A DNA stretch of 64,000 bases from an uncultured Verrucomicrobiota bacterium. Its GTDB lineage: Bacteria; Verrucomicrobiota; Verrucomicrobiia; Opitutales; Opitutaceae. Location: NCBI GenBank assembly GCA_903898675.1, contig CAIUGM010000001.1, positions 1 to 64,000 on the forward strand, written 5' to 3'. Below the pieces are notes generated by a model. The model was not told the origin of the DNA. It did not search any database and saw only the letters and a program-made list of their open reading frames with translations. Positions 381 to 10,897 of the stretch are shown piece after piece. A program made the translations under genes and the position numbers. Position 1 is the stretch's first letter. Each line of letters opens with the position of its first letter.

Positions 381-1742
381 ATGAATACCCCGAAACCGAA
401 TACTGTTACCCGCCGCCGTTTCATCCAGACTGCCTCGCTCGCGGCCCTCGCCGCCGGCTTCATCCCCCGGAGCTTCGGCCAGTCGGCCAACACCAGCCCG
501 GCCCGGTTCAAGAACCTCGTGACGGACGGCCGCAAACTGCGCATCGCCTGCATCGGCATCGGCGGCCAGGGCCAGTACGACAACAAGAACCTGCGCGACG
601 AGGAGATCGTCGCCCTCTGCGACGTGGACTTTGAGCGCGGCCTCGAGACCTTCTCCGCGCTGCCCAAGGCGGCCCGTTACCGCGACTACCGCCAGATGCT
701 GACCGAGATGGGCGACCGCATCGACGCCGTGTCGATCAGCACGCCCGACCACATGCACTTTCCCGCGGCCCTCATGGCGATCGAGATGGGCAAGCACGTC
801 CGCGTGCAGAAGCCGCTCACCCACACCATCGAGGAGGCCCGCATCCTCAAGGCCGCCGCGCTCAAGGCCGGCGTCGTGACGCAGATGGGCAACCAGGGCC
901 ACGCCAACGAGGGCACGCGCCTCACCAAGGAGTGGATCGAGGCCGGCGTCATCGGCACCGTCCGCGAAGTTCATTTCTGGACCAACCGCCCCATCTGGCC
1001 GCAGGGCGTCGCGCTCCCCGAGATGATGCCGGTCCCGCCGACCCTCGACTGGAACCTCTGGGTCGGCGTCGCCCCCGAGCGGCCATACAGCAAGGAACTG
1101 ATGCCCTTTGCGTGGCGCGGCTTCTGGGACTACGGCTGCGGTGCGCTGGGCGATATGGGCTGCCACATCATGGACGCCGCGTTCTATGCCCTCGACCTCC
1201 GCGGCAACGTCAAGGTCAGCGCCGTGAGCGAAGGCTGCTCCGATGTCTCCTGCCCGAAGTCCTCGATCGTCACGTACGAGTTTCCCCAGCGCGGCGACCG
1301 CGCCCCGCTCAAGGTCGTGTGGTTCGACGGCCAGAACAAGCCGCCCGTCCCGAAGGAACTCGGGCCGGATGCCAAGCTTTCGATGGGTGGCTCGATCTTC
1401 TACGGCGACAAGGGCGTGCTGCTCGACACCGACGACTACAACGCCGCCCCTCGCCTGCTGCCCGACGAGCGCATGAAGGCGTTCACCAACCGGCCCAAGA
1501 AGACGATCCCGCGCGTGCCCAAGGCCAACTCGTACCAGGAATGGATCTCCGCCTGCAAGGGCGAGGGTCCCGTCCCCGGCTCCAACTTCGTCGACCACGC
1601 GGTCGACCTCACCGAGTTCGTGCTGCTCGGCAACGTCGCCATCCGCGCCGGCCAGCCCATCGAGTGGGATGCCGAGAAGATGACCTGCAGCAACTTGCCC
1701 GAGGCCGACCGCTTCGTGCGCAAATCCTACCGCGTCTATTAA
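381..1742 (+). CDS. Tat-exported Gfo/Idh/MocA family oxidoreductase
   Basis: A 453-aa NAD(P)-dependent sugar oxidoreductase of the Gfo/Idh/MocA family. Residues 11-26 form a twin-arginine signal (RRRFIQTASLAALAAG), so the folded protein with bound cofactor is expected in the periplasm. The Rossmann nucleotide loop is IACIGIGGQG (about 55-64). The usual EKP motif before the substrate domain reads QKPLT (143-147), replacing the conserved Glu with Gln. The C-terminal alpha/beta substrate domain runs from about 175 to 450. It is the first gene of a + strand run; the next gene starts 22 bases downstream. Context suggests oxidation of a glycoside or sugar at C3, but the substrate cannot be read from sequence. 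Family call is firm, substrate is inference. Confidence 0.9.
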   Translation: MNTPKPNTVTRRRFIQTASLAALAAGFIPRSFGQSANTSPARFKNLVTDGRKLRIACIGIGGQGQYDNKNLRDEEIVALCDVDFERGLETFSALPKAARYRDYRQMLTEMGDRIDAVSISTPDHMHFPAALMAIEMGKHVRVQKPLTHTIEEARILKAAALKAGVVTQMGNQGHANEGTRLTKEWIEAGVIGTVREVHFWTNRPIWPQGVALPEMMPVPPTLDWNLWVGVAPERPYSKELMPFAWRGFWDYGCGALGDMGCHIMDAAFYALDLRGNVKVSAVSEGCSDVSCPKSSIVTYEFPQRGDRAPLKVVWFDGQNKPPVPKELGPDAKLSMGGSIFYGDKGVLLDTDDYNAAPRLLPDERMKAFTNRPKKTIPRVPKANSYQEWISACKGEGPVPGSNFVDHAVDLTEFVLLGNVAIRAGQPIEWDAEKMTCSNLPEADRFVRKSYRVY

Positions 1743-1764
1743 TCCCGGCCCCGAACTTATCCCC

Positions 1765-3261
1765 ATGAAATTTTTCTCCTCCCTCCTCCTCGTCACCGCC
1801 TGTCTGCTGGCCCGCCCGGCCGCCTGCGCCGCGACCGAACTCGGGCTGCAAGCCTGGACCTTCCGCAGCCTGACCTTCGTCGAGACCCTCGATGAGGCCC
1901 ACGCGCTCGGCATCCACAACCTCCAGGCCTATCCCGGCCAGGAACTCGGCGGCGGCCTCGCCGGCAAGTTCAGCCACACCATGGACGCCGCCACGCTCGA
2001 GAAGGTCCTCGCCCTCGCCCAGGCGCGGGACGTTGTCATCACCAGCTACGGTGTCATCACGCCGAAGGACGACGCCGAGTGGGCCGTGCTCCTCGCGTTC
2101 GCCCACGCCGCCGGGCTCAAGGAGATCGTCACCGAGGCGAAGGCCGACGCCCTCGCCGCCATCGCCCCCGCGGTCGTGAAGAACAACCTGATGATCTCGC
2201 TGCACAACCACCCGGCGCCGAACTTCTATGCGAGGCCCGAGACGGGCCTCGCCGCCATCAAGGGCCTGGGCGCGAACTTCGGCCTTTGCGCCGACACCGG
2301 CCACTGGGCCCGCACGGGACTCGACCCGGTCGCGACCCTGAAGGTCGTCGCCGGCCACATCAATTCGCTTCACTTCAAGGATATCGCGGAGCGCGGCAAA
2401 CCCTCCCGGGACCTGCCGTGGGGCACGGGCACGTCCAACGTGGCCGGCCAGCTCGCCGAGCTGCTGCACCAGCATTTCTCCGGCGTGGCCTACATTGAGT
2501 ATGAGCACCAGTCCCCCGCCCTGAAGGACGACGTCGCGCGCTGCGTTGCCTATTTCCGCACCGCCGAAAAGCTGTCCTACGACGACCTGCTCCGCAACCG
2601 GATCGTGCCCGCCGGCTTCAGCGCCGATGTGCGCGCCAACTTCGCCGCGGGCCACGGGAAGGACTCGGCCCGCTGGCCGGCCATGCAGCCGCTGTTCGCG
2701 ACCGACCTGAGTAACGCCGACATGGCTTATCCGGGCGCGTGGGCCTTCAGCCCCGAGGGCGTCCTCGCCCCGGTCATGGCCGCCGGCGCCAAGCCCAACG
2801 GCGACCTCTGGACCAAGGCGGATTACGGCGACTTCGTCATCTCGCTCGAATTCCGCGCCCAGGAAAATTCCAACAGCGGCGTCTTCCTCCGCTCGAGCGA
2901 CATCGTCAACTGGCTGCAGAACTCGATCGAGATCCAGATCCTGCAGGGCGACGAAAAGCCCGTCCATCTGGTCGGTTCGGTCTATGATGTCGCCGCGCCG
3001 AGCCGGCAGGTGCCGATCACCCCGGGCGAGTGGTACCACTACGTGATCACCGCGCGCGGCAGCCTGATCACCGTGACGCTGAACGGCGAGGAAGTGAACA
3101 AGGTCGATCTCGACCAGTGGACGAAGGCCGGCTTCAATCCGGACGGCGCCGCGAACAAGTTCACCAAGGCCTACAAGGACATGGCCCGCTCGGGCCGCGT
3201 CGGCCTGCAGTACCACAAGTCGCCGATCGAATTCCGCAATCTCTTCATCGAACGCCTCTGA
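1765..3261 (+). CDS. Exported sugar isomerase/epimerase fused to a DUF1080 (3-keto-disaccharide hydrolase) domain
   Basis: A 498-aa protein with an N-terminal Sec signal (residues 1-22, ending AAC-AA). Residues about 25-270 are an AP-endonuclease-2/xylose-isomerase-like TIM barrel, with metal-site-like segments SLHNHPAP, LCADTGHWARTG, SLHFKD and YIEYEH. Residues about 300-498 are a DUF1080 beta-sandwich, recognised by DFVISLEFRAQENSNSGVFL, then IEIQIL and a closing VGLQYHKSPIEFRNLFIE. DUF1080 is known in 3-keto-glycoside hydrolases, and related TIM-barrel proteins act on 3-keto-sugars. Both activities in one exported chain suggest hydrolysis of a 3-keto-glycoside followed by isomerisation or lyase chemistry. 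Its neighbours, two Gfo/Idh/MocA dehydrogenases, could make the 3-keto substrate. Domain calls are firm, the reaction is inferred. Confidence 0.88.
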   Translation: MKFFSSLLLVTACLLARPAACAATELGLQAWTFRSLTFVETLDEAHALGIHNLQAYPGQELGGGLAGKFSHTMDAATLEKVLALAQARDVVITSYGVITPKDDAEWAVLLAFAHAAGLKEIVTEAKADALAAIAPAVVKNNLMISLHNHPAPNFYARPETGLAAIKGLGANFGLCADTGHWARTGLDPVATLKVVAGHINSLHFKDIAERGKPSRDLPWGTGTSNVAGQLAELLHQHFSGVAYIEYEHQSPALKDDVARCVAYFRTAEKLSYDDLLRNRIVPAGFSADVRANFAAGHGKDSARWPAMQPLFATDLSNADMAYPGAWAFSPEGVLAPVMAAGAKPNGDLWTKADYGDFVISLEFRAQENSNSGVFLRSSDIVNWLQNSIEIQILQGDEKPVHLVGSVYDVAAPSRQVPITPGEWYHYVITARGSLITVTLNGEEVNKVDLDQWTKAGFNPDGAANKFTKAYKDMARSGRVGLQYHKSPIEFRNLFIERL

Positions 3262-3272
3262 GCCTCCCCTTC

Positions 3273-3812
3273 ATGACCACCTCCCCCTCCACCGACCAGG
3301 CCAAGCCGGGCCTTGATGCGTACGCCGGCAGCTGCGCCTTCCTGTTGCTGCGCCTCTGGCTCAGCATGCGCGCCATCGCCACGGGCCTCGACAAGTTTGC
3401 CGGCAAGATCACCGAGCAGAAGCCGCTGCTCGACGAATTCGGCCAGCCGGACATCAACGGCACGATGGTCAACGTGGAGCACAAGGTCTACGCCCTGAAA
3501 TATTACCAGGGCGTGCCCGCGGCACTGTCGGCCAAGTTCGCCGCCGAACCGCTCCTGCCCGCGTTCCTCCTGAAGCCCTACACCGCGTCGCTGGGTTATC
3601 TGCTCATCCTCAGCGGCGTGCTGCTGCTGCTGGGCGTCGCCACCCGGACTTCCCTCTTCATCCACGGGCTGATCTACATCAGCCTTTCCTTCGGCCTCGT
3701 CCTCATCAATGAGAGCGGCGGCGTGGCGTGGCTGGCGGCCCACATGATCCTGGTGGTCGCGGCGCTCGCCCTGGCCAAGTACAACCGTTTCACCCTCACC
3801 CAACGCTGGTAA
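3273..3812 (+). CDS. DoxX-like integral membrane protein
   Basis: A 179-aa membrane protein. The chosen ATG at 3273 lies 11 bases after the preceding stop; a longer upstream reading would overlap the DUF1080 gene and lacks membrane character. It has one hydrophobic helix at about 18-40, a polar loop (about 42-100) and at least two or three helices between 105 and 170 (LGYLLILSGVLLLLG, LIYISLSFGLVLI, AHMILVVAALALA). This is the layout of DoxX/DoxD-like proteins, some of which are linked to quinone-dependent oxidation. Lying between two exported dehydrogenases, it could pass electrons from periplasmic sugar oxidation to the respiratory chain. That role is inference; no cofactor motif is visible. 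Confidence 0.75.
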   Translation: MTTSPSTDQAKPGLDAYAGSCAFLLLRLWLSMRAIATGLDKFAGKITEQKPLLDEFGQPDINGTMVNVEHKVYALKYYQGVPAALSAKFAAEPLLPAFLLKPYTASLGYLLILSGVLLLLGVATRTSLFIHGLIYISLSFGLVLINESGGVAWLAAHMILVVAALALAKYNRFTLTQRW

Positions 3813-3817
3813 TCACC

Positions 3818-5164
3818 GTGACCTCCCCCGCCAAAACCTCCCCCGCCGCGCCGGACACAAGCCGCCGCGATTTCATGAAAACGAGCCTGCTGGTCGGCGG
3901 CGGCATCATGCTCGGCGCCCCGGCGTTCCTGCGCGCGCAGACGCCCAAGGCGGACGCCCTGCAGGTCGCCCTCGTCGGCATGGGCGCCCAGGGCCGCGTG
4001 CTGCTCGAGGCCATGCTCGGCATTCCCAACATCAACTTCCGCGCGGTCTGCGACATCTGGCCCTTCAGCCGCACCTACGGCCAGAACCGCCTCGGCAAGG
4101 CCGGCTTCAAGGTCAACACGTACGGCGACATCGAGGACATGCTCGCCAAGGAGACCGGGCTCGACGCCGTCGTCATCGCCACGCCGGACTTCTGGCACGC
4201 CCCGCACACCAACCTGTGCCTCAAGGCCGGGTTGAACGTCTATTGCGAGAAGATGATGTCCAACACCGTCGAGGGCGCCCGGTCGATGGTGCGCACGATG
4301 CGCGAGACCGGCAAGCTGCTCCAGATCGGCCACCAGCGCCGGAGCAATCCGCGCTACCGCCACGCGCTCGACAATCTCATCCACAAGGCCCGCCTCCCCG
4401 GCCGTCTGACCAACGCCAACGCCCAGTGGAACCGCGCAGTGACGCCGGACCTCGGCTGGCCCAAGACGGCGGAACTCCCGGCCGATGTCCTGAAGAAATA
4501 CGGTTTCCGCGACATGCACCAGTTCCGCAACTGGCGTTGGTTCCGTGATCTCTCGGGCGGCCCGATCTCCGACCTCGGCGCGCACCAGATCGACGTCTTC
4601 AACTGGTTCTACGGCACGAGCCCGACCAGCGTCATCGCCTCCGGCGGCACCGACTACTACAAGGGCCGCGAGTGGTACGACAACGTCATGGCCATCTTCG
4701 AGTACAAGCTGCCCGAGGGCAACGTGCGCGCCTTTTACCAGGTGCTCACCACCACCAGCGCCGGCGGCGGCTACTTCGAGCAGTTCATGGGGGACGAAGG
4801 CTCCGTGAAGATCTCGGAAAATCCCTCCCTGACCAAGGCCTACCGCGAGGACCGCGCCCCGGACTGGGACAAGTGGGTCGACCTGAATTACATCACGAAG
4901 AGCGCGGCCCCCGCGCCGGCCCCCGCCGGCAAGGTCGACGTGCGCGAGACCGCCCCGCTGGTCGCCTTCGAGCTGCCCATCGTGCTCGACAAGCCGATCC
5001 ACCAGCCCCACCTGGAGAATTTCTTCTCCGCCGTCCGCGGCCAGGGCAAGCTGAACTGCAGTGCCGACGAGGCCTTCGTTAGCGAGGCCGCCATCTTCAA
5101 GGTGAATCCCGCCGTCGCCGCCCGCGCCGCGTACGATTACCAGCCGTCCGACTTTGTAGTCTGA
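3818..5164 (+). CDS. Tat-exported Gfo/Idh/MocA family oxidoreductase (second copy)
   Basis: A 448-aa protein starting at GTG 3818, five bases after the DoxX-like stop. The start fits a twin-arginine signal (SRRDFMKTSLLVGGG, residues 15-29) near the N-terminus; the open frame extends further upstream but inside the previous gene. The Rossmann loop is VALVGMGAQG (about 48-57). The EKP-type motif is YCEKMMSNTVEGA, keeping Glu-Lys but replacing Pro with Met. The substrate domain includes WRWFRDLSGGPISDLGAHQ, a signature of the family. It is clearly divergent from the 381-1742 copy, so the two probably act on different substrates or different steps. Part of the same likely operon. Confidence 0.9.
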   Translation: MTSPAKTSPAAPDTSRRDFMKTSLLVGGGIMLGAPAFLRAQTPKADALQVALVGMGAQGRVLLEAMLGIPNINFRAVCDIWPFSRTYGQNRLGKAGFKVNTYGDIEDMLAKETGLDAVVIATPDFWHAPHTNLCLKAGLNVYCEKMMSNTVEGARSMVRTMRETGKLLQIGHQRRSNPRYRHALDNLIHKARLPGRLTNANAQWNRAVTPDLGWPKTAELPADVLKKYGFRDMHQFRNWRWFRDLSGGPISDLGAHQIDVFNWFYGTSPTSVIASGGTDYYKGREWYDNVMAIFEYKLPEGNVRAFYQVLTTTSAGGGYFEQFMGDEGSVKISENPSLTKAYREDRAPDWDKWVDLNYITKSAAPAPAPAGKVDVRETAPLVAFELPIVLDKPIHQPHLENFFSAVRGQGKLNCSADEAFVSEAAIFKVNPAVAARAAYDYQPSDFVV

Positions 5165-5184
5165 GACCCAGCCACCCAAGCTGA

Positions 5185-5313
5185 GTTAACCACGGATCTC
5201 ACGGATGAACACGGATGCTGGAATGAAATGCCCCTACAAGGCCAAACCCGGCGGCGCTCAATACCCCGTTCCGAGAATTCATCCGTGTCAATCCGTGCAA
5301 TCCGTGGTCAAAC
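5185..5313. repeat. Inverted pair of CACGGAT-type repeats
   Basis: The left arm (5185-5218) contains three spaced ACGGAT units. The right arm (5277-5313) contains their inverse (ATCCGTG three times). The arms enclose about 58 bases. The whole unit lies between the second oxidoreductase and the discoidin-like gene and could form a long hairpin in the polycistronic RNA. A related arrangement with ACGGAA units is present at 19152-19368. Confidence 0.75.
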
Positions 5314-5330
5314 TACCTGAACCCTCTCTC

Positions 5331-5987
5331 ATGAAAACCTTCTCCTTCCTGTTCTGCCTTGGCCTCTCTGCCATTGCGCTGCGCGCCGACGAGGCGCTGA
5401 CGCCACTGAAACTGGATTATCCGCCGCCCCAGCTCACCGGCACCCCGGTGCCGGCCAAGCTGAAGAACCTCGAGGCCCCGAACGTCAAGCCGCCGCTGAT
5501 CATGGTGCCGGCCGGTGTCACCAATCTCGCCAAGGGCAAGCCGGTCACCGCCTCCGACACGGCGCCCGTGATCGGCGACGTCACTCTCATCACCGACGGC
5601 GACAAGAGCTCCGATGAAGGTTCCTTCGTGGAACTCGACCGCGGATTGCAGTGGGTGCAGATCGACCTCGGCGCCCCGGCCGAGCTCTATGCCGTCGCCC
5701 TCTGGCACTACCACGGCCAGGCCCGGGCTTACCTGAGTGTCATCGTGCAGGTCTCCAACGACCCGGCGTTCAAGACGGATGTGCGCACCATTTTTAACAA
5801 CGACGACGACAACAAGTCCGGCTTCGGCGCCGGCCGCGATCCCACCTACCTCGAGAAAAACACCGGCCGCCTGATTCCCGCCGGGAAGGCGGTCGCGCGC
5901 TATGTCCGCCTCTACAGCGCGGGCAACACCTCGAACGAGCTCAACCATTACATCGAGGTCGAGGTCTACGGTCGGGCGAAGCCCTAG
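5331..5987 (+). CDS. Exported discoidin-like (F5/8 type C) domain protein
   Basis: A 218-aa protein with a Sec signal at residues 1-19 (MKTFSFLFCLGLSAIALRA). The rest resembles a galactose-binding/discoidin fold: NLAKGKPVTASD opens the domain (about 63-74), LQWVQIDLGAPAELYAVALW follows (about 105-124), and ARYVRLYSAGNTSNELNHY with a terminal IEVEVYGR closes it. No catalytic residues are seen, so it is probably a periplasmic or surface carbohydrate-binding accessory for the cluster upstream. The ATG at 5331 is preferred because it gives the signal peptide; an upstream in-frame ATG at 5205 falls inside a repeat. Confidence 0.8.
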   Translation: MKTFSFLFCLGLSAIALRADEALTPLKLDYPPPQLTGTPVPAKLKNLEAPNVKPPLIMVPAGVTNLAKGKPVTASDTAPVIGDVTLITDGDKSSDEGSFVELDRGLQWVQIDLGAPAELYAVALWHYHGQARAYLSVIVQVSNDPAFKTDVRTIFNNDDDNKSGFGAGRDPTYLEKNTGRLIPAGKAVARYVRLYSAGNTSNELNHYIEVEVYGRAKP

Positions 5988-6168: not shown

Positions 6169-7641
6169 ATGGTTCCCCGCGTTTTAAACCTCGTTCCCCG
6201 CCGCCGGCTGTTCCTCCTCGCGGCCGGCCTCCTGCTCGCCGGCGCGGCCTTGCTGCGTTTCATCCCGGTTGAACGCCGGCCCTTCCACGCCGACGAGGCG
6301 GTACAGGCCTACCAGACCTGGCAGCTCCTGCGGGGCGAGGGCTACACCTACGACCCGGCGGACAAGCACGGTCCGTTCCTCTATTATGCCGCGGCCGGCA
6401 TCGCGCGGGTCTCCGGCTGGACGCCGGCGTCGCTCGACGAATCCCGCCTGCGGCTGGTGACATTGCTCGCAGGCCTGGGTACGCTGGCGCTGCTCGCCGG
6501 CCTGTCCGCGCGGCTCGGCGCCGGCCCGGCGCTCATCGGCACCGCGCTCCTCGCCGCCGCCCCGCTCGCGGTGATCTACGATACCTACTTCGTGCAGGAG
6601 GCGTGGTTTTCGTTTTTCACCTGGGCGTTGTTTTGCGCCCTCCTGCGCCTCCGGGAAAAACCAACCCTGCCGGCCGCGTTGCTGGTGGGTGGGCTCGCCG
6701 GCCTGATGCAGGCTACCAAGGAAACCTCCGTGCTGCATTTCGCCGCGCTGGGCCTCGCGCTGCTCGCCACCACGCCATGGCGGGAACTGGCCCGGCTCTG
6801 GCCCCGGTGGCTCGCGGCGCTGGGCACCGCCGTGTTGGTCTACGTGGTTTTCTATTCGGCTTTTTTCACGCACTGGTCCGGCGTGGTCGACGGCCTCCGC
6901 ACCTACGCCGGCTATGCGGGCCGGGCCGCGGCGAGCGCCCACACGCAGCCGTGGGATTATTATTTCCAACTGCTCTGCCCGCACACCCGCGAAGGCGCCC
7001 ACTGGGGCGAACCCTGGCTGCTGCTGGCCGCGCTCGCGGGCGCGGGGTTCGCCTTTTTCCGGCCCGCCAGTCCGGCCCACCGCTGCCTCGCGATTTTCAC
7101 GGGCTCGCTCCTGGGCATCTACAGCCTGATTCCCTACAAGACGCCGTGGCTGCTCCTGACGCCTTACGCGGGCCTCGCGCTGCTGGCCGGTCTCGGGGTG
7201 GTGCACGCGGCGAATTTGCTGCCGGCAAAATTCCGCGTGGTGGTGGCGGCCGGGCTTTGCCTCGGTTTGCTGACTGGAGCCCTCGTGCGCGAGCGTAACG
7301 CGGTGGGGCGCTACGCCAGCGACGACCGCAACCCCTACCTTTATCAGCCGACGTCCCCGCAATTTCCCCGGCTGGTGGCCCGGCTGCATGAACTCGCGGC
7401 TCAAGCCGGCCGGCCGCTCCGGGTCGCCGTGGTGAGCCCGGACTATGCGTGGCCGTTGCCGTGGTATTTTCGCGCGGAGCCGTCGTTCGGGTTTTTCCCG
7501 GTGCCGCCACCGCAGCTCTCGCTCTACGACGTGACGCTCACCGATTCGCGCCTGCCGTCACTCCCGCCGCCGGGGGCGCAACCCTTCGGCCTGCGACCCA
7601 ACGTGCTGCTTTGGCTGAGCCGTCCCGCCACTGCCCCCTGA
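6169..7641 (+). CDS. Agl23/TIGR03663-like multi-pass glycosyltransferase-type membrane protein
   Basis: A 490-aa polytopic membrane protein. A hydrophobic first helix (about 12-30) is followed by the acidic loop RRPFHADEAVQAYQTWQLL (about 37-55), typical of GT-C glycosyltransferases of the PMT/ArnT/Agl23 type, where the Asp-Glu pair sits near the active site. About ten further hydrophobic segments follow. The motif LIPYKTPWLLLTPYAGLALL near residue 320 is characteristic of the TIGR03663 subgroup. It probably transfers a sugar from a lipid carrier on the outer face of the inner membrane. The ApbE gene starts 5 bases downstream and a GT2 gene overlaps that, so the three look cotranscribed. The GT2 product may make the lipid-linked sugar donor. 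Confidence 0.75.
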   Translation: MVPRVLNLVPRRRLFLLAAGLLLAGAALLRFIPVERRPFHADEAVQAYQTWQLLRGEGYTYDPADKHGPFLYYAAAGIARVSGWTPASLDESRLRLVTLLAGLGTLALLAGLSARLGAGPALIGTALLAAAPLAVIYDTYFVQEAWFSFFTWALFCALLRLREKPTLPAALLVGGLAGLMQATKETSVLHFAALGLALLATTPWRELARLWPRWLAALGTAVLVYVVFYSAFFTHWSGVVDGLRTYAGYAGRAAASAHTQPWDYYFQLLCPHTREGAHWGEPWLLLAALAGAGFAFFRPASPAHRCLAIFTGSLLGIYSLIPYKTPWLLLTPYAGLALLAGLGVVHAANLLPAKFRVVVAAGLCLGLLTGALVRERNAVGRYASDDRNPYLYQPTSPQFPRLVARLHELAAQAGRPLRVAVVSPDYAWPLPWYFRAEPSFGFFPVPPPQLSLYDVTLTDSRLPSLPPPGAQPFGLRPNVLLWLSRPATAP

Positions 7642-7646
7642 AGCCC

Positions 7647-8555
7647 ATGTCCCCGTCCGCCCCGCTGCCTGACTTGCGCATCACCCTGCCCCCGGGACTG
7701 ACGGCGGTCGGGCATGCCGCGATGGCGACCGAGTTCGTCCTGCATCTCGGCGGCCATGACCCCGCCTACCTGCGGCAGGCGGCGGTGGAAGCCGGCCGGG
7801 AAATCGACCGGCTGGAAGAGACGCTGAGTTTTTATCGCGAATCGAGCGATGTCACCCGGCTCAACCGGGCCGCCCCCGGCGCGGAAGTTTCCGTGAGCCC
7901 CAATACGCTGGCCTGCCTGGAACTGGCCGCGGAAGCCGCCCGCCTGACCGGCGGGGCCTTCGACGCCTTCACGGGCCGGGCCGCCATCGCGGCGAAACAG
8001 CAGGAAGTTCCCCTGCACCTCAGGCACGCCCCGTCGCCCGGGGAAACCGATGTGCCCGGACCGGTCTTCAGCCTTCATCCCGAGAGCGGCGTGATTCGCA
8101 AGCTCCGGGCCGGGCCGTGGCTCGACCTCGGCGCCCTCGGCAAAGGCTACGCCCTCGACGCGGCGGCCGCGGTCTTGCAGGAGTGGGCGGTGACGGAAGG
8201 TTTTCTTTCCGCCGGCGGCAGCAGCCTGCGCGGACTCGGCGGGAACGGCTGGCAACTGGAGGTCGGCGCTTCGGCCGCGTCGATCCCGCTCCCGGGGGCG
8301 TTTGGCCTTGGGGCGTCGGGCTTTCTCTTTCAACCGGGTCACATCATTGATGCGCGCGCCACCGGTGCCGTGTCAGCGGCCAAGCGTACCGTGGCCCTCG
8401 CACCCAGTGCCGCCCTGGCCGATGCGCTCAGTACGGCGGCAATGTTGCTGACTGCGACCCAACTCGCTGAACTGATCCGCTCGCAACCCGGCCTCGCCCT
8501 GCTCGTCATCGACGCGCAGGGCCGGCGCCAAGGTTACGGCCCGCCCTTTGCATGA
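7647..8555 (+). CDS. apbE: ApbE-like FAD:protein FMN transferase
   Basis: A 302-aa protein starting at ATG 7647; an open frame continues upstream but only inside the previous gene. Motifs follow the ApbE family: IDRLEETLSFYRESSDVTRL (about 53-72), LTGGAFDAFTG, DLGALGKGYALDAAA and FLSAGGSSLRGLG. ApbE attaches FMN covalently to Thr/Ser of target proteins such as NqrB, NqrC or RnfG-type domains. No signal peptide is obvious, so the compartment is uncertain. No flavinylation target is encoded nearby. Its position between two glycosyltransferase-type genes is odd; the tight spacing suggests a shared transcript. Confidence 0.8.
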   Translation: MSPSAPLPDLRITLPPGLTAVGHAAMATEFVLHLGGHDPAYLRQAAVEAGREIDRLEETLSFYRESSDVTRLNRAAPGAEVSVSPNTLACLELAAEAARLTGGAFDAFTGRAAIAAKQQEVPLHLRHAPSPGETDVPGPVFSLHPESGVIRKLRAGPWLDLGALGKGYALDAAAAVLQEWAVTEGFLSAGGSSLRGLGGNGWQLEVGASAASIPLPGAFGLGASGFLFQPGHIIDARATGAVSAAKRTVALAPSAALADALSTAAMLLTATQLAELIRSQPGLALLVIDAQGRRQGYGPPFA

Positions 8556-9268
8556 ACCCGCACCGCACCCTCCTGGTCATCCCGTGCTATCGTGACGGGG
8601 AAAGGCTCGCGGATTTCCTACCCGGGCTCTGCGCCGCGCTTGAGACTGGCCGGGACGAAGTTGACGTGCAGGTCGTGGAGGATGGCTCGCCCCACGCCGA
8701 GCAGCTCGAGCTGGAAGGCGTCATCACCAGCCTGCGGCAACGGCATCCGTTTCTGTTGCCGCTCGTCATCTGCCCGGTCAACCGCGGCAAGGGTCACGCG
8801 ATCCAGACCGGCTGGACGGGCGCGCCGGGCGCAGGCTGGCTCGCGTTCGTCGACGCCGACGGGGCCGTCCCGGCCGCCGAGGTGGTGGCCTTGCTGGCCC
8901 TGGCGCTGCGCTCGCCCGGACCCGCGGTATTCATTGGCGACCGGACCCTCTCCCACGAGAAGACCGTGCAGCGCTTCTGGCATCGCCGGCTCGGCAGCCG
9001 CCTGTTCAACGCGTGGGTGCGACTCTGGCTCCGGCTCGGCCTGACCGACACCCAATGCGGCCTCAAGGTCATCCCGGCTTCGCTGCACGCGCAGGCCCCC
9101 TGGCGCGAGGACGGCTTTGCCTTTGACCTCGAGCTTTTGCTGCGGGCGCGCGCCACCAGCCTGCCCATCTTCACGCAACCCATCGAGTGGCGCGAAAAAC
9201 CCGGCTCCAGCCTGGGGCCGCGCGCCATGCTCGGGCTGTTCCTCGCGGCCTACCGGCTGCGGCGGTAG
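8552..9268 (+). CDS. Family 2 glycosyltransferase
   Basis: A 238-aa GT-A glycosyltransferase. The start ATGA at 8552 overlaps the ApbE stop by 4 bases, indicating translational coupling. It opens with LLVIPCYRDGERLADFLPGL and has VEDGSPH (nucleotide binding), NRGKGHAIQTGW (about 78-89) and the metal-binding FVDADGAVPAAEV (about 98-110). LTDTQCGLKVIP and an acidic FDLELLLRA segment follow. This is the pattern of dolichyl/polyprenyl-phosphate glucosyltransferases such as DPG synthase, but without the C-terminal membrane helices. It likely makes a polyprenyl-phosphate sugar used by the multi-pass protein at 6169. Confidence 0.85.
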   Translation: MNPHRTLLVIPCYRDGERLADFLPGLCAALETGRDEVDVQVVEDGSPHAEQLELEGVITSLRQRHPFLLPLVICPVNRGKGHAIQTGWTGAPGAGWLAFVDADGAVPAAEVVALLALALRSPGPAVFIGDRTLSHEKTVQRFWHRRLGSRLFNAWVRLWLRLGLTDTQCGLKVIPASLHAQAPWREDGFAFDLELLLRARATSLPIFTQPIEWREKPGSSLGPRAMLGLFLAAYRLRR

Positions 9269-9391
9269 CCCGACGCGGTTAGCCCTGCTGCTTGGTCGCT
9301 GCCGCTTAAATTCCCAACCCCACCAACTCACTTCTGGGTTGTTGCCCCGGGCGTTTCACTGCTTACCTGATTCCCCCTCACCTTTCCCCCC

Positions 9392-10897
9392 ATGTCACTT
9401 TTCATCGGCATCGACAGCGGCACCCAAAGCACCAAGGCGGTGGTCCTCGACCTCGCCACGGGCAAAGTCATCGCGGAGGCCCGCGCGCCCCATCAACTCA
9501 TCACCGGGCTGCCCGCCGGCCACATGGAACAGCATCCCCGGGAGTGGACGGCCGCGCTCGACGCGGTGATCCTGGAGGTGGCCGCCAAGATCGACCGCAC
9601 CCAGGTCCGCGGTATCGGCGTCTCGGGCCAGCAGCACGGCTTCGTCCCGCTCGATGCGCAGGGCGAGGTCATCCGTCCCGCCAAGCTCTGGTGCGACACC
9701 AGCACCGTCGCGGAATGCGCGCTGCTGACGAAGAAACTCGGCGGCCCGAAGGCCGTCATCCGCCGGGCCGGCCTGCCGTTCCTGCCCGGTTACACCGCGC
9801 CAAAGATCCTGTGGCTCAAGCGGCACGAACCGGCGAACTACCGCCGCCTCCGCCATGTGCTCCTCCCGCATGACTACCTGAATTTCCATCTCACCGGAAA
9901 TTACTTCATGGAACCCGGCGATGCCTCGGGCACCGCGCTGCTCGACGTGCGCCAGCGGACGTGGTCGGGTGAAACACTCAAGGCCATCGACAAAAATCTC
10001 GCCGACTGGCTGCCGCCGATTTCGAAATCGAGCGACTCCGCCGGCACGTTGCGCCCGGCGCTCGCCAAGAAATACGGTTTCTCCTCCGACGTGATGGTGA
10101 GCGCCGGCGGCGGCGACAACATGATGGGCGCCATCGGCACGGGCAACGTCGCGCCCGGCAACGTCACCGCCAGCTTCGGCACCAGCGGCACGATCTACGC
10201 GTACAGCAACCAGCCGGTGATCGATCCCCGCGGGGAGATCGCCGCCTTCTGTTCCTCGACCGGCGGCTGGCTGCCGCTGCTCTGCACGATGAACCTGACG
10301 TCGGTCACGGAGCTGTTCCGCAACCTCTTCGGCTGGGATCACGCCGCGCTCGAACAGGCCGTGGCGGCCACGCCGGCCGGCGCCGGTGGCCTCAACCTGC
10401 TGCCCTACTTCGATGGCGAACGCACCCCGAACCTCCCGACCGGCACGGGCGTCCTCGCCGGCCTGAACCGGCACACGCTCAACCCCGGCCACCTGGCCCG
10501 GGCCGCCATGGAGGGCGCGACCCTCAATATGAACTACGGCCTGCGCCGGCTCGCCGCGCTCGACGTCAAGCCCCGCGAGATCCGCGTCACCGGCGGCGGC
10601 GCGCGCTCGCCGGTCTGGCGGCAGATCATGGCCGACATTTTTGGGGTGCCGGTGGTCGCGATGGTCGAAGACGAAGGCGCGGCCCTCGGCGGCGCCTTGC
10701 AGGCCGCGTGGTGCACCGCCCTGCAGGAAGGCCGCAAGGTGAAACTCTCCGACCTGACCGCCCGGGTTGTCGCCGTGAACGAAGCCACCCGCGCGACCCC
10801 CGACAAACAGCGCCGGGCGTTTTACCGGGAGCTGCAGGCGAAGCACGACGGACTCAGCCAGACGATGCGGCCGTATTTTGAGGCGGCGGGCAGCTGA
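9392..10897 (+). CDS. xylB: Xylulokinase (FGGY family)
   Basis: A 501-aa sugar kinase that phosphorylates D-xylulose with ATP to give xylulose 5-phosphate. The N-terminal ATPase motif is FIGIDSGTQSTKAVVLDLATG (about 4-24), followed by EQHPREWTAALDAV and GVSGQQHGFVPLD (the sugar-contacting xylulokinase segment). The C-terminal half has VMVSAGGGDNMMGAIGTG with the catalytic Asp, then LPYFDGERTPNLP and a VTGGGARSPVWRQIMADI adenosine loop. Length and motifs fit XylB well. It stands alone: no xylose isomerase or transporter lies beside it. Confidence 0.9.
   Translation: MSLFIGIDSGTQSTKAVVLDLATGKVIAEARAPHQLITGLPAGHMEQHPREWTAALDAVILEVAAKIDRTQVRGIGVSGQQHGFVPLDAQGEVIRPAKLWCDTSTVAECALLTKKLGGPKAVIRRAGLPFLPGYTAPKILWLKRHEPANYRRLRHVLLPHDYLNFHLTGNYFMEPGDASGTALLDVRQRTWSGETLKAIDKNLADWLPPISKSSDSAGTLRPALAKKYGFSSDVMVSAGGGDNMMGAIGTGNVAPGNVTASFGTSGTIYAYSNQPVIDPRGEIAAFCSSTGGWLPLLCTMNLTSVTELFRNLFGWDHAALEQAVAATPAGAGGLNLLPYFDGERTPNLPTGTGVLAGLNRHTLNPGHLARAAMEGATLNMNYGLRRLAALDVKPREIRVTGGGARSPVWRQIMADIFGVPVVAMVEDEGAALGGALQAAWCTALQEGRKVKLSDLTARVVAVNEATRATPDKQRRAFYRELQAKHDGLSQTMRPYFEAAGS

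Follow-up and report, generated by a model that had tools for sequence, protein, structure and literature searches.

Gene content of the locus

A 64,000-nucleotide stretch of DNA from an uncultured Verrucomicrobiota bacterium of the family Opitutaceae (assembly GCA_903898675.1, contig CAIUGM010000001.1, positions 1 to 64,000), referred to here as the window, carries near its start a run of plus-strand genes around GFO2, a dehydrogenase of the Gfo/Idh/MocA family that is proposed below to be the core of an exported, membrane-linked sugar oxidation system. The run begins with a variable part made up of GFO1 (381..1742, 453 amino acids), a second Gfo/Idh/MocA protein assigned by translation and profile scans, and a fusion of a TIM barrel to a PF06439 domain (1765..3261, 498 amino acids), assigned by Pfam and with a signal peptide recognised by eye. 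These are followed by a DoxX-like four-helix membrane protein (3273..3812, 179 amino acids), identified from its relatives, its predicted fold and its position in relatives; GFO2 itself (3818..5164, 448 amino acids, GTG start), which belongs to a cassette-specific subfamily; and DISC (5331..5987), a discoidin-like (F5/8C) protein with a CBM32-like fold and a signal peptide recognised by eye. A five-gene run with small gaps had been described from the letters alone (the sequence-only reading), and translation and profile scans confirmed it, with intergenic gaps of 22, 11, 5 and 166 bases. That reading ended the run at DISC and overlooked two linked genes on the same strand, for an Agl23-like (TIGR03663/PMT_2) membrane protein (6169..7641; 114 bits to TIGR03663, under the cut-off of 126) and a divergent ApbE of the FAD:protein FMN transferase family without a signal peptide (7647..8555). 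Both are co-conserved with the other genes, and the co-conserved run therefore extends past DISC to position 8555.

The twin-arginine translocation (Tat) model TIGR01409, with a cut-off of 16.7 bits, is exceeded by both GFO1 (19.8 bits) and GFO2 (18.6 bits), in agreement with the two Tat-signal proteins first reported. GFO2 also exceeds the gathering cut-off of 24 for PF01408 (57.8 bits) and scores 68.8 bits against NF058561, the BT_2158 glycoside 3-dehydrogenase equivalog, missing the curated cut-off of 750. Residues R16, R17, F19, D79, K145, D252 and H256 of GFO2 are kept in at least 95% of 73 sequences; D79 sits after the second strand, and D79, K145, D252 and H256 are, from what holds for the Gfo/Idh family, presumably dehydrogenase-type residues.

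The DoxX-like protein of the window has no Pfam match at E <= 0.1, and its family label stands by way of its relatives, since among 24 aligned relatives six match DoxX (PF07681; best 9.9e-7) and eight match MauE. Its predicted structure (pLDDT 91) has four helices, the first two joined by a hairpin loop (approximately residues 43-92); the positive C-terminus suggests that the loop is likely to be periplasmic. A Foldseek search of this structure against the PDB gave no match at E <= 0.001, and structural rows ranking after the one for NACHO, such as vitamin K carboxylase (Z 8.0), lie within the chance level for helical bundles. A DoxX loop resembling SGAM was also considered as a flavinylation site and was rejected, as the spacing is wrong, there is no acceptor residue and short DoxX forms lack the loop.

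The predicted structure of DISC (pLDDT 91) has a CBM32-like fold, with matches to the chitosan-binding module 4zy9 (E 2.2e-8, TMt 0.78) and the CBM32 structure 7d2a (E 6.3e-8, TMt 0.77), and no solved relative was found by sequence except for one weak AlyQ row. A near-invariant W-H-x-H-x-Q-x-R-x-Y stretch could, on the predicted model, bind sugar. The discoidin-like gene was correctly recognised in the sequence-only reading, but its reported start at 5205 was not upheld: the start is most likely 5331, because the longer open reading frame (ORF) from 5205 enters a 126-base inverted-repeat element that lies between GFO2 and DISC (5186..5311, no strand assigned). The arms of this element are 32 nucleotides long, inverted and 84% complementary, and its ACGGAT pattern has no other occurrence in the window with up to one mismatch allowed. 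Some relatives (loci L156, L159, L165 and L184; genomes G307, G338, G363 and G341) have a second copy of DISC in tandem or, in G341, a single 721-residue frame that matches DISC twice.

Conservation of the cassette in related genomes

The window DoxX protein, used as a query, matched in 39 of 95 related genomes (46 match rows), and 40 regions covering part of these rows were fetched. A GFO2-type gene is present in 37 of the 40 and the order DoxX-GFO2-DISC in 35, a recurrence that is far beyond chance. The exceptions are extra DoxX copies (L070, L075), a contig edge (L076) and two regions without DISC in that search (L049, L065), for the first of which a later scan revealed a partial DISC. The expectation that gene order would be conserved in other Verrucomicrobiota was thus borne out for DoxX-GFO2-DISC and mostly not for the upstream fusion.

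When named genome contigs were searched with the GFO2 alignment, at least 564 relatives turned up, the best 80 of which were used (the 80 loci); by record title they are mostly Verrucomicrobiota. DoxX lies upstream of GFO2 in all 72 loci whose upstream sequence exceeds 700 bases and in four of the eight others. DISC is present in 75 of the 80 and, among the 74 loci that leave 800 bases of room downstream, is found there in 73. Where room permits, Agl23-like genes are found in 57 of 66 loci and ApbE in 51 of 63, and all five genes occur in order in the Acidobacteriota loci L177 (Occallatibacter savannae) and L186 (an Acidobacteriaceae metagenome-assembled genome). A near-obligatory DoxX-GFO2-DISC triplet was considered and set aside, as it holds for these 80 best-scoring loci only; across the GFO2 genomes of the phylum, DoxX is present in 44 of 68 and GFO2 adjoins DISC in 43 of 68.

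This wider survey covered 387 genomes of the phylum at a GFO2 threshold of E <= 1e-120. GFO2 was found in 68 genomes and DISC in 76, and every one of the 68 GFO2 genomes also has DISC (13.4 expected). Cassette-type ApbE, defined by a score gap (at least 200 bits, against 164 for the next match), occurs in 65 genomes, of which 63 also have DISC and 62 GFO2 (11.4 expected), and TIGR03663 is found in 83, 69 with DISC and 14 without; GFO2, DISC, ApbE and the Agl23-like protein are found all together in 59 of the 68. Among the listed genomes of 11 genera that hold both states, ApbE-type genes are present in 22 of 22 with the cassette and in 1 of 20 without it. ApbE and DISC are no more than 10 kb apart in 39 of 63 genomes, with ApbE elsewhere in the other 24, and an Agl23-like gene lies within 3 kb of ApbE in 15 of 23 tested genomes where ApbE sits outside the cassette. 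Pairs of Agl23-like and ApbE genes away from the GFO2 locus were noted in G104, G201, G262, G265, G274, G292 and others. Pairwise distances of DISC, DoxX, GFO2 and ApbE correlate (r 0.61 to 0.86, Mantel P 0.001 each), a pattern that can also be obtained from shared descent alone.

The variable upstream genes

GFO1 is a Gfo/Idh/MocA member (PF01408, 64.8 bits, above the gathering cut-off of 24) and scores 411.9 bits against NF058561, under the cut-off of 750, and it is therefore a relative rather than a member of the BT_2158 equivalog. Its closest solved dehydrogenases are 8tdf and 8tdh (283 and 282 bits across approximately 390 residues), and these matches, with that to the glycoside 3-dehydrogenase model, support the suggestion that a Gfo/Idh protein of the locus may oxidise sugars at C3. 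The fusion comprises a xylose-isomerase-like TIM barrel (approximately residues 25-266; AP_endonuc_2, 57.7 bits, above cut-off) and a PF06439 3-keto-disaccharide hydrolase domain (approximately residues 299-497; 119.1 bits, exceeding the gathering cut-off of 26.8). The TIM half matches the solved sugar-isomerase-like TIM barrels 3p6l and 4kw2 (165 and 132 bits), with which it has H-N-H-P, D-x-G-H-W and H-x-K-D stretches in common, and the PF06439 half matches 3s5q and 3imm (102 and 95 bits). These family resemblances support the proposed link of this TIM/DUF1080 fusion to 3-keto-glycosides. BT2157 is named a 3-ketotrehalose hydrolase (PMC9007349) and BT2158 a periplasmic glycoside 3-dehydrogenase (PMC11300592) in the parts of these papers drawn on here. 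GFO1 and both halves of the fusion appear related to enzymes of this kind, and the upstream part is therefore, as judged from sequence, a compact relative of a known 3-keto-glycoside pathway.

These genes are not a constant companion of GFO2. Immediately before DoxX, 10 of the 80 loci carry a PF06439 gene (L107, L108, L110, L111, L125, L129, L132, L148, L150 and L154), and of 52 loci with at least 4.5 kb upstream, 17 have a GFO1-type gene, 34 any same-strand Gfo/Idh gene and 7 a PF06439 gene, the distance filter of this last count dropping some. Synteny thus rejects the idea that the whole run is one dedicated 3-keto-glycoside pathway. The close relatives L107, L108 and L110 (and L037-L040) have a further GFO1-like gene, placed between the fusion and DoxX and missing from the window.

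A seven-haem cytochrome instead of DoxX

A DoxX profile search found DoxX in 44 GFO2 genomes, directly upstream of GFO2 in 43, and 20 of the 24 GFO2 regions from the other genomes were read. In 14 of these 20 (L254-L265, L267 and L269), a long protein with exactly seven CxxCH motifs, mostly with a leader by eye, is encoded directly after GFO2 on the same strand. The cytochrome c7/c3 families PF14522 and PF14537 score over cut-off in all three of the seven-haem proteins scanned, and a sequence search with one member, from L256, found no solved relative at E <= 0.01. ApbE and DISC lie downstream on the same strand in 13 of the 14 cytochrome loci, and the DoxX-type loci (the 80 and the 40) contain no ORF with three or more CxxCH motifs. 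A PF06439 protein is encoded between the cytochrome and ApbE in L254 and L260, and in L267 (G418, 6880-10222) a b561-like protein (below cut-off), a UbiA prenyltransferase and a polyprenyl synthase lie inside the GFO2-cytochrome-ApbE run.

An exchange of DoxX for a multihaem cytochrome would be expected if the common task of the two partners were to take up electrons from GFO2, and this exchange is the best evidence that GFO2 passes electrons on. The sequence-only reading had assigned DoxX an electron-transfer role within the 3-keto-glycoside pathway. The tie of DoxX to an exported Gfo/Idh protein and the cytochrome exchange favour such a link, but it belongs to GFO2 and not to the hydrolase, because DoxX-GFO2-DISC mostly occurs without the fusion or a GFO1-type gene.

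ApbE and its possible target

The window ApbE scores 110.6 bits against PF02424, exceeding the gathering cut-off of 25.6, and its residues K166, H232, D259 and T263, which we take to be catalytic, are invariant in 41 sequences. In 51 of 54 cassette ApbE proteins the start lies no more than 25 residues before the first conserved motif, and cassette ApbE is therefore most likely cytosolic, as far as sequence can indicate. Tat substrates fold before export, and a cytosolic flavinylase therefore fits GFO2 as a target. One known cytosolic ApbE acts on a soluble fumarate reductase (PMC12052999, in the part used here).

Searches for ApbE and FMN_bind covered 42 of the 68 GFO2 genomes and a further 20 genomes without GFO2. 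In 28 of the 42, an ApbE gene sits no more than 12 kb from GFO2; in 11 it is the sole ApbE of the genome, and no FMN_bind, DUF2271 or DUF3570 protein was found in these 11. The genome of the window (G000) has a second, canonical ApbE apart from the cassette, which has a partner of a known kind, since a DUF3570 gene adjoins it (C3:12044-14093).

A proposed respiratory role for GFO2

It is fairly probable that a conserved exported sugar dehydrogenase system is built around GFO2, that it works with DISC, a signal-less ApbE, the Agl23-like protein and either DoxX or a cytochrome, and that it is wired to the respiratory membrane. This proposal draws on the gene order, the Tat signals, the conserved dehydrogenase-type residues, the folds predicted for DoxX and DISC, co-occurrence and the exchange of DoxX for a cytochrome. 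GFO2 would fold in the cytosol, with NAD staying bound, and be exported by Tat, a flavin perhaps having been attached to it by the cytosolic ApbE before export. Outside the cytosol it would oxidise a sugar or sugar derivative, possibly one held by DISC, and electrons would pass, perhaps through the flavin, to the membrane by way of DoxX in the window or the seven-haem cytochrome in other lineages, possibly with the involvement of quinone. The bound NADH would be re-oxidised via this membrane partner, with the flavin as the likely step from hydride to one-electron chemistry; the Agl23-like protein may have a part in the system, and the upstream slot would take varying partners, which in the window would be GFO1 and the TIM/PF06439 fusion. 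A more specific version is tentative and rather doubtful: GFO2 would be a new kind of respiratory dehydrogenase with covalent FMN attached by ApbE at a non-canonical site, hydride would pass from NADH to FMN and on to an exchangeable DoxX or cytochrome, and various substrate-specific Gfo/Idh and 3-keto-glycoside enzymes would be plugged into it.

Several observations weigh against these proposals. The flavinylation motif D-x-x-[ST]-G-A-[ST] is found in 0 of 72 GFO2, 0 of 70 DoxX, 1 of 71 DISC and 0 of 59 Agl23-like sequences, and a motif hunt in G406 (2.3 Mb, with a sole ApbE) gave 69 DNA matches, which were all inspected and yielded seven in-frame ORFs of at least 80 residues; by eye one of these encodes a tRNA synthetase and another a beta-helix-like protein, and no plausible partner is among them. 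No conserved cysteine was found in DoxX, and DoxX is absent by profile from 24 of the 68 GFO2 genomes. Of the 20 DoxX-less regions read, six lack the seven-haem cytochrome too: L266 keeps GFO2, DISC, Agl23 and ApbE with neither DoxX nor cytochrome, the upstream neighbour there being ThuA-like by eye, and L268 and L270-L273 have a more distant GFO2 with no cassette around it. GFO2 and DISC adjoin each other in 43 of the 68 genomes, are no more than 12 kb from each other in 15 and lie apart in 10, cassette-type ApbE is missing in six of the 68 and occurs without DISC in G100 and G224, and P values for co-occurrence treat genomes as independent. NACHO/TMEM35A gives the top structural row for DoxX, with a Z of 13.8 across 126 residues, which would suit an assembly factor, although this likeness, drawn from a predicted model, shows fold and no function.

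The NACHO likeness also suits a different account, in which GFO2 shares the mode of action of glucose-fructose oxidoreductase or DgpA: a second sugar would regenerate the bound NAD(H), the enzyme would release no electrons and DoxX would be an anchor or assembly factor. DgpA is the best solved match of GFO2 (96 bits) and glucose-fructose oxidoreductase matches at 68-69 bits by sequence, but such an enzyme would not account for a seven-haem cytochrome in place of DoxX in 14 of 20 DoxX-less regions or for ApbE-type genes in 62 of 68 GFO2 genomes, and this account is considered rather improbable. GFO2 could also be a GH109-type NAD-dependent glycosidase, in which NAD is oxidised and re-reduced within one cycle and no electron link is needed. 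GH109 enzymes can carry Tat signals, and the GH109 structures 2ixa (58.5 bits) and 6t2b (47 bits) are among the matches of GFO2; however, they match the Rossmann part only (2ixa: profile 44-164) and score below DgpA, and DoxX, the cytochrome and ApbE would be left without explanation, making a glycosidase very unlikely.

The cassette might instead modify a surface or lipid-linked glycan, to which the Agl23-like protein would add a sugar that GFO2 oxidises outside the cytosol, with DISC binding. Of the 68 GFO2 genomes, 59 have the Agl23-like protein along with ApbE and DISC, and a GT2 gene (8552-9268) that resembles polyprenyl-phosphate-sugar synthases follows ApbE in the window. GT2 of this type, however, clusters in only 5 of the 80 loci, and the genes around GFO2 have a catabolic appearance: 34 of 52 loci have a Gfo/Idh gene on the same strand no farther than 4.5 kb away, L254 and L260 have PF06439, and TIM isomerases occur. 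Glycan modification is thus regarded as unlikely.

Relation to known systems

The Bacteroides thetaiotaomicron pathway of the BT2156-BT2160 type has further genes beyond BT2157 and BT2158. GFO1 and the TIM and PF06439 parts of the window resemble proteins of this pathway and carry export signals; in the window, however, TIM and PF06439 are fused, GFO1 falls below the NF058561 cut-off and a DoxX-GFO2-DISC-Agl23-ApbE run follows. LacABC is a non-Gfo/Idh dehydrogenase, unlike GFO1 and GFO2. The lactose 3-dehydrogenase system of LacABC and DUF1080, as described in part of PMC9007349, is similar in coupling membrane-linked periplasmic sugar oxidation to a proposed PF06439 hydrolysis. The four-enzyme deglycosylation operon of Agrobacterium with AtOGE and AtHYD (PMC10628242) likewise has oxidoreductases and isomerase-like TIM barrels that act on 3-keto-glycosides, but the main text has no DUF1080, and the portion drawn on here has no DoxX, F5/8C or ApbE.

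The extracytosolic electron-transfer systems flavinylated by ApbE, as far as covered by the part of PMC8238504 used, also have apbE clustered with exported redox and membrane proteins, whereas the cassette has an ApbE without a signal peptide and a putative Gfo/Idh partner, and 11 genomes lack FMN_bind, DUF2271 and DUF3570. The signal-less ApbE of Klebsiella needed for soluble fumarate reductase is similarly cytosolic, but that reductase, in the same portion of PMC12052999, is a model for the known flavinylation motif, which the cassette lacks. The consulted main text of PMC11334425 makes no mention of DoxX, Gfo or Verrucomicrobi. Every single protein family of the cassette is already known, and no description of the combination was found in a literature search that left most subscription journals outside.

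How exported NAD-dependent dehydrogenases re-oxidise their bound cofactor without free NAD outside the cytosol is an open question. The same companions of GFO2 in many lineages, together with the change of neighbour from DoxX to a seven-haem cytochrome, make an answer testable. Should GFO2 be a respiratory dehydrogenase, DoxX, a widespread family whose role is little understood, would gain a defined function through its exchange with a known electron carrier, and a target would be indicated for a class of ApbE outside the known flavinylation families.

Other features of the window

Downstream of GT2 lies a xylulokinase gene (9392-10897). Upstream of the gene run, at positions 4-61 of the window, there is an inverted repeat with 26-nucleotide arms that are 81% complementary.

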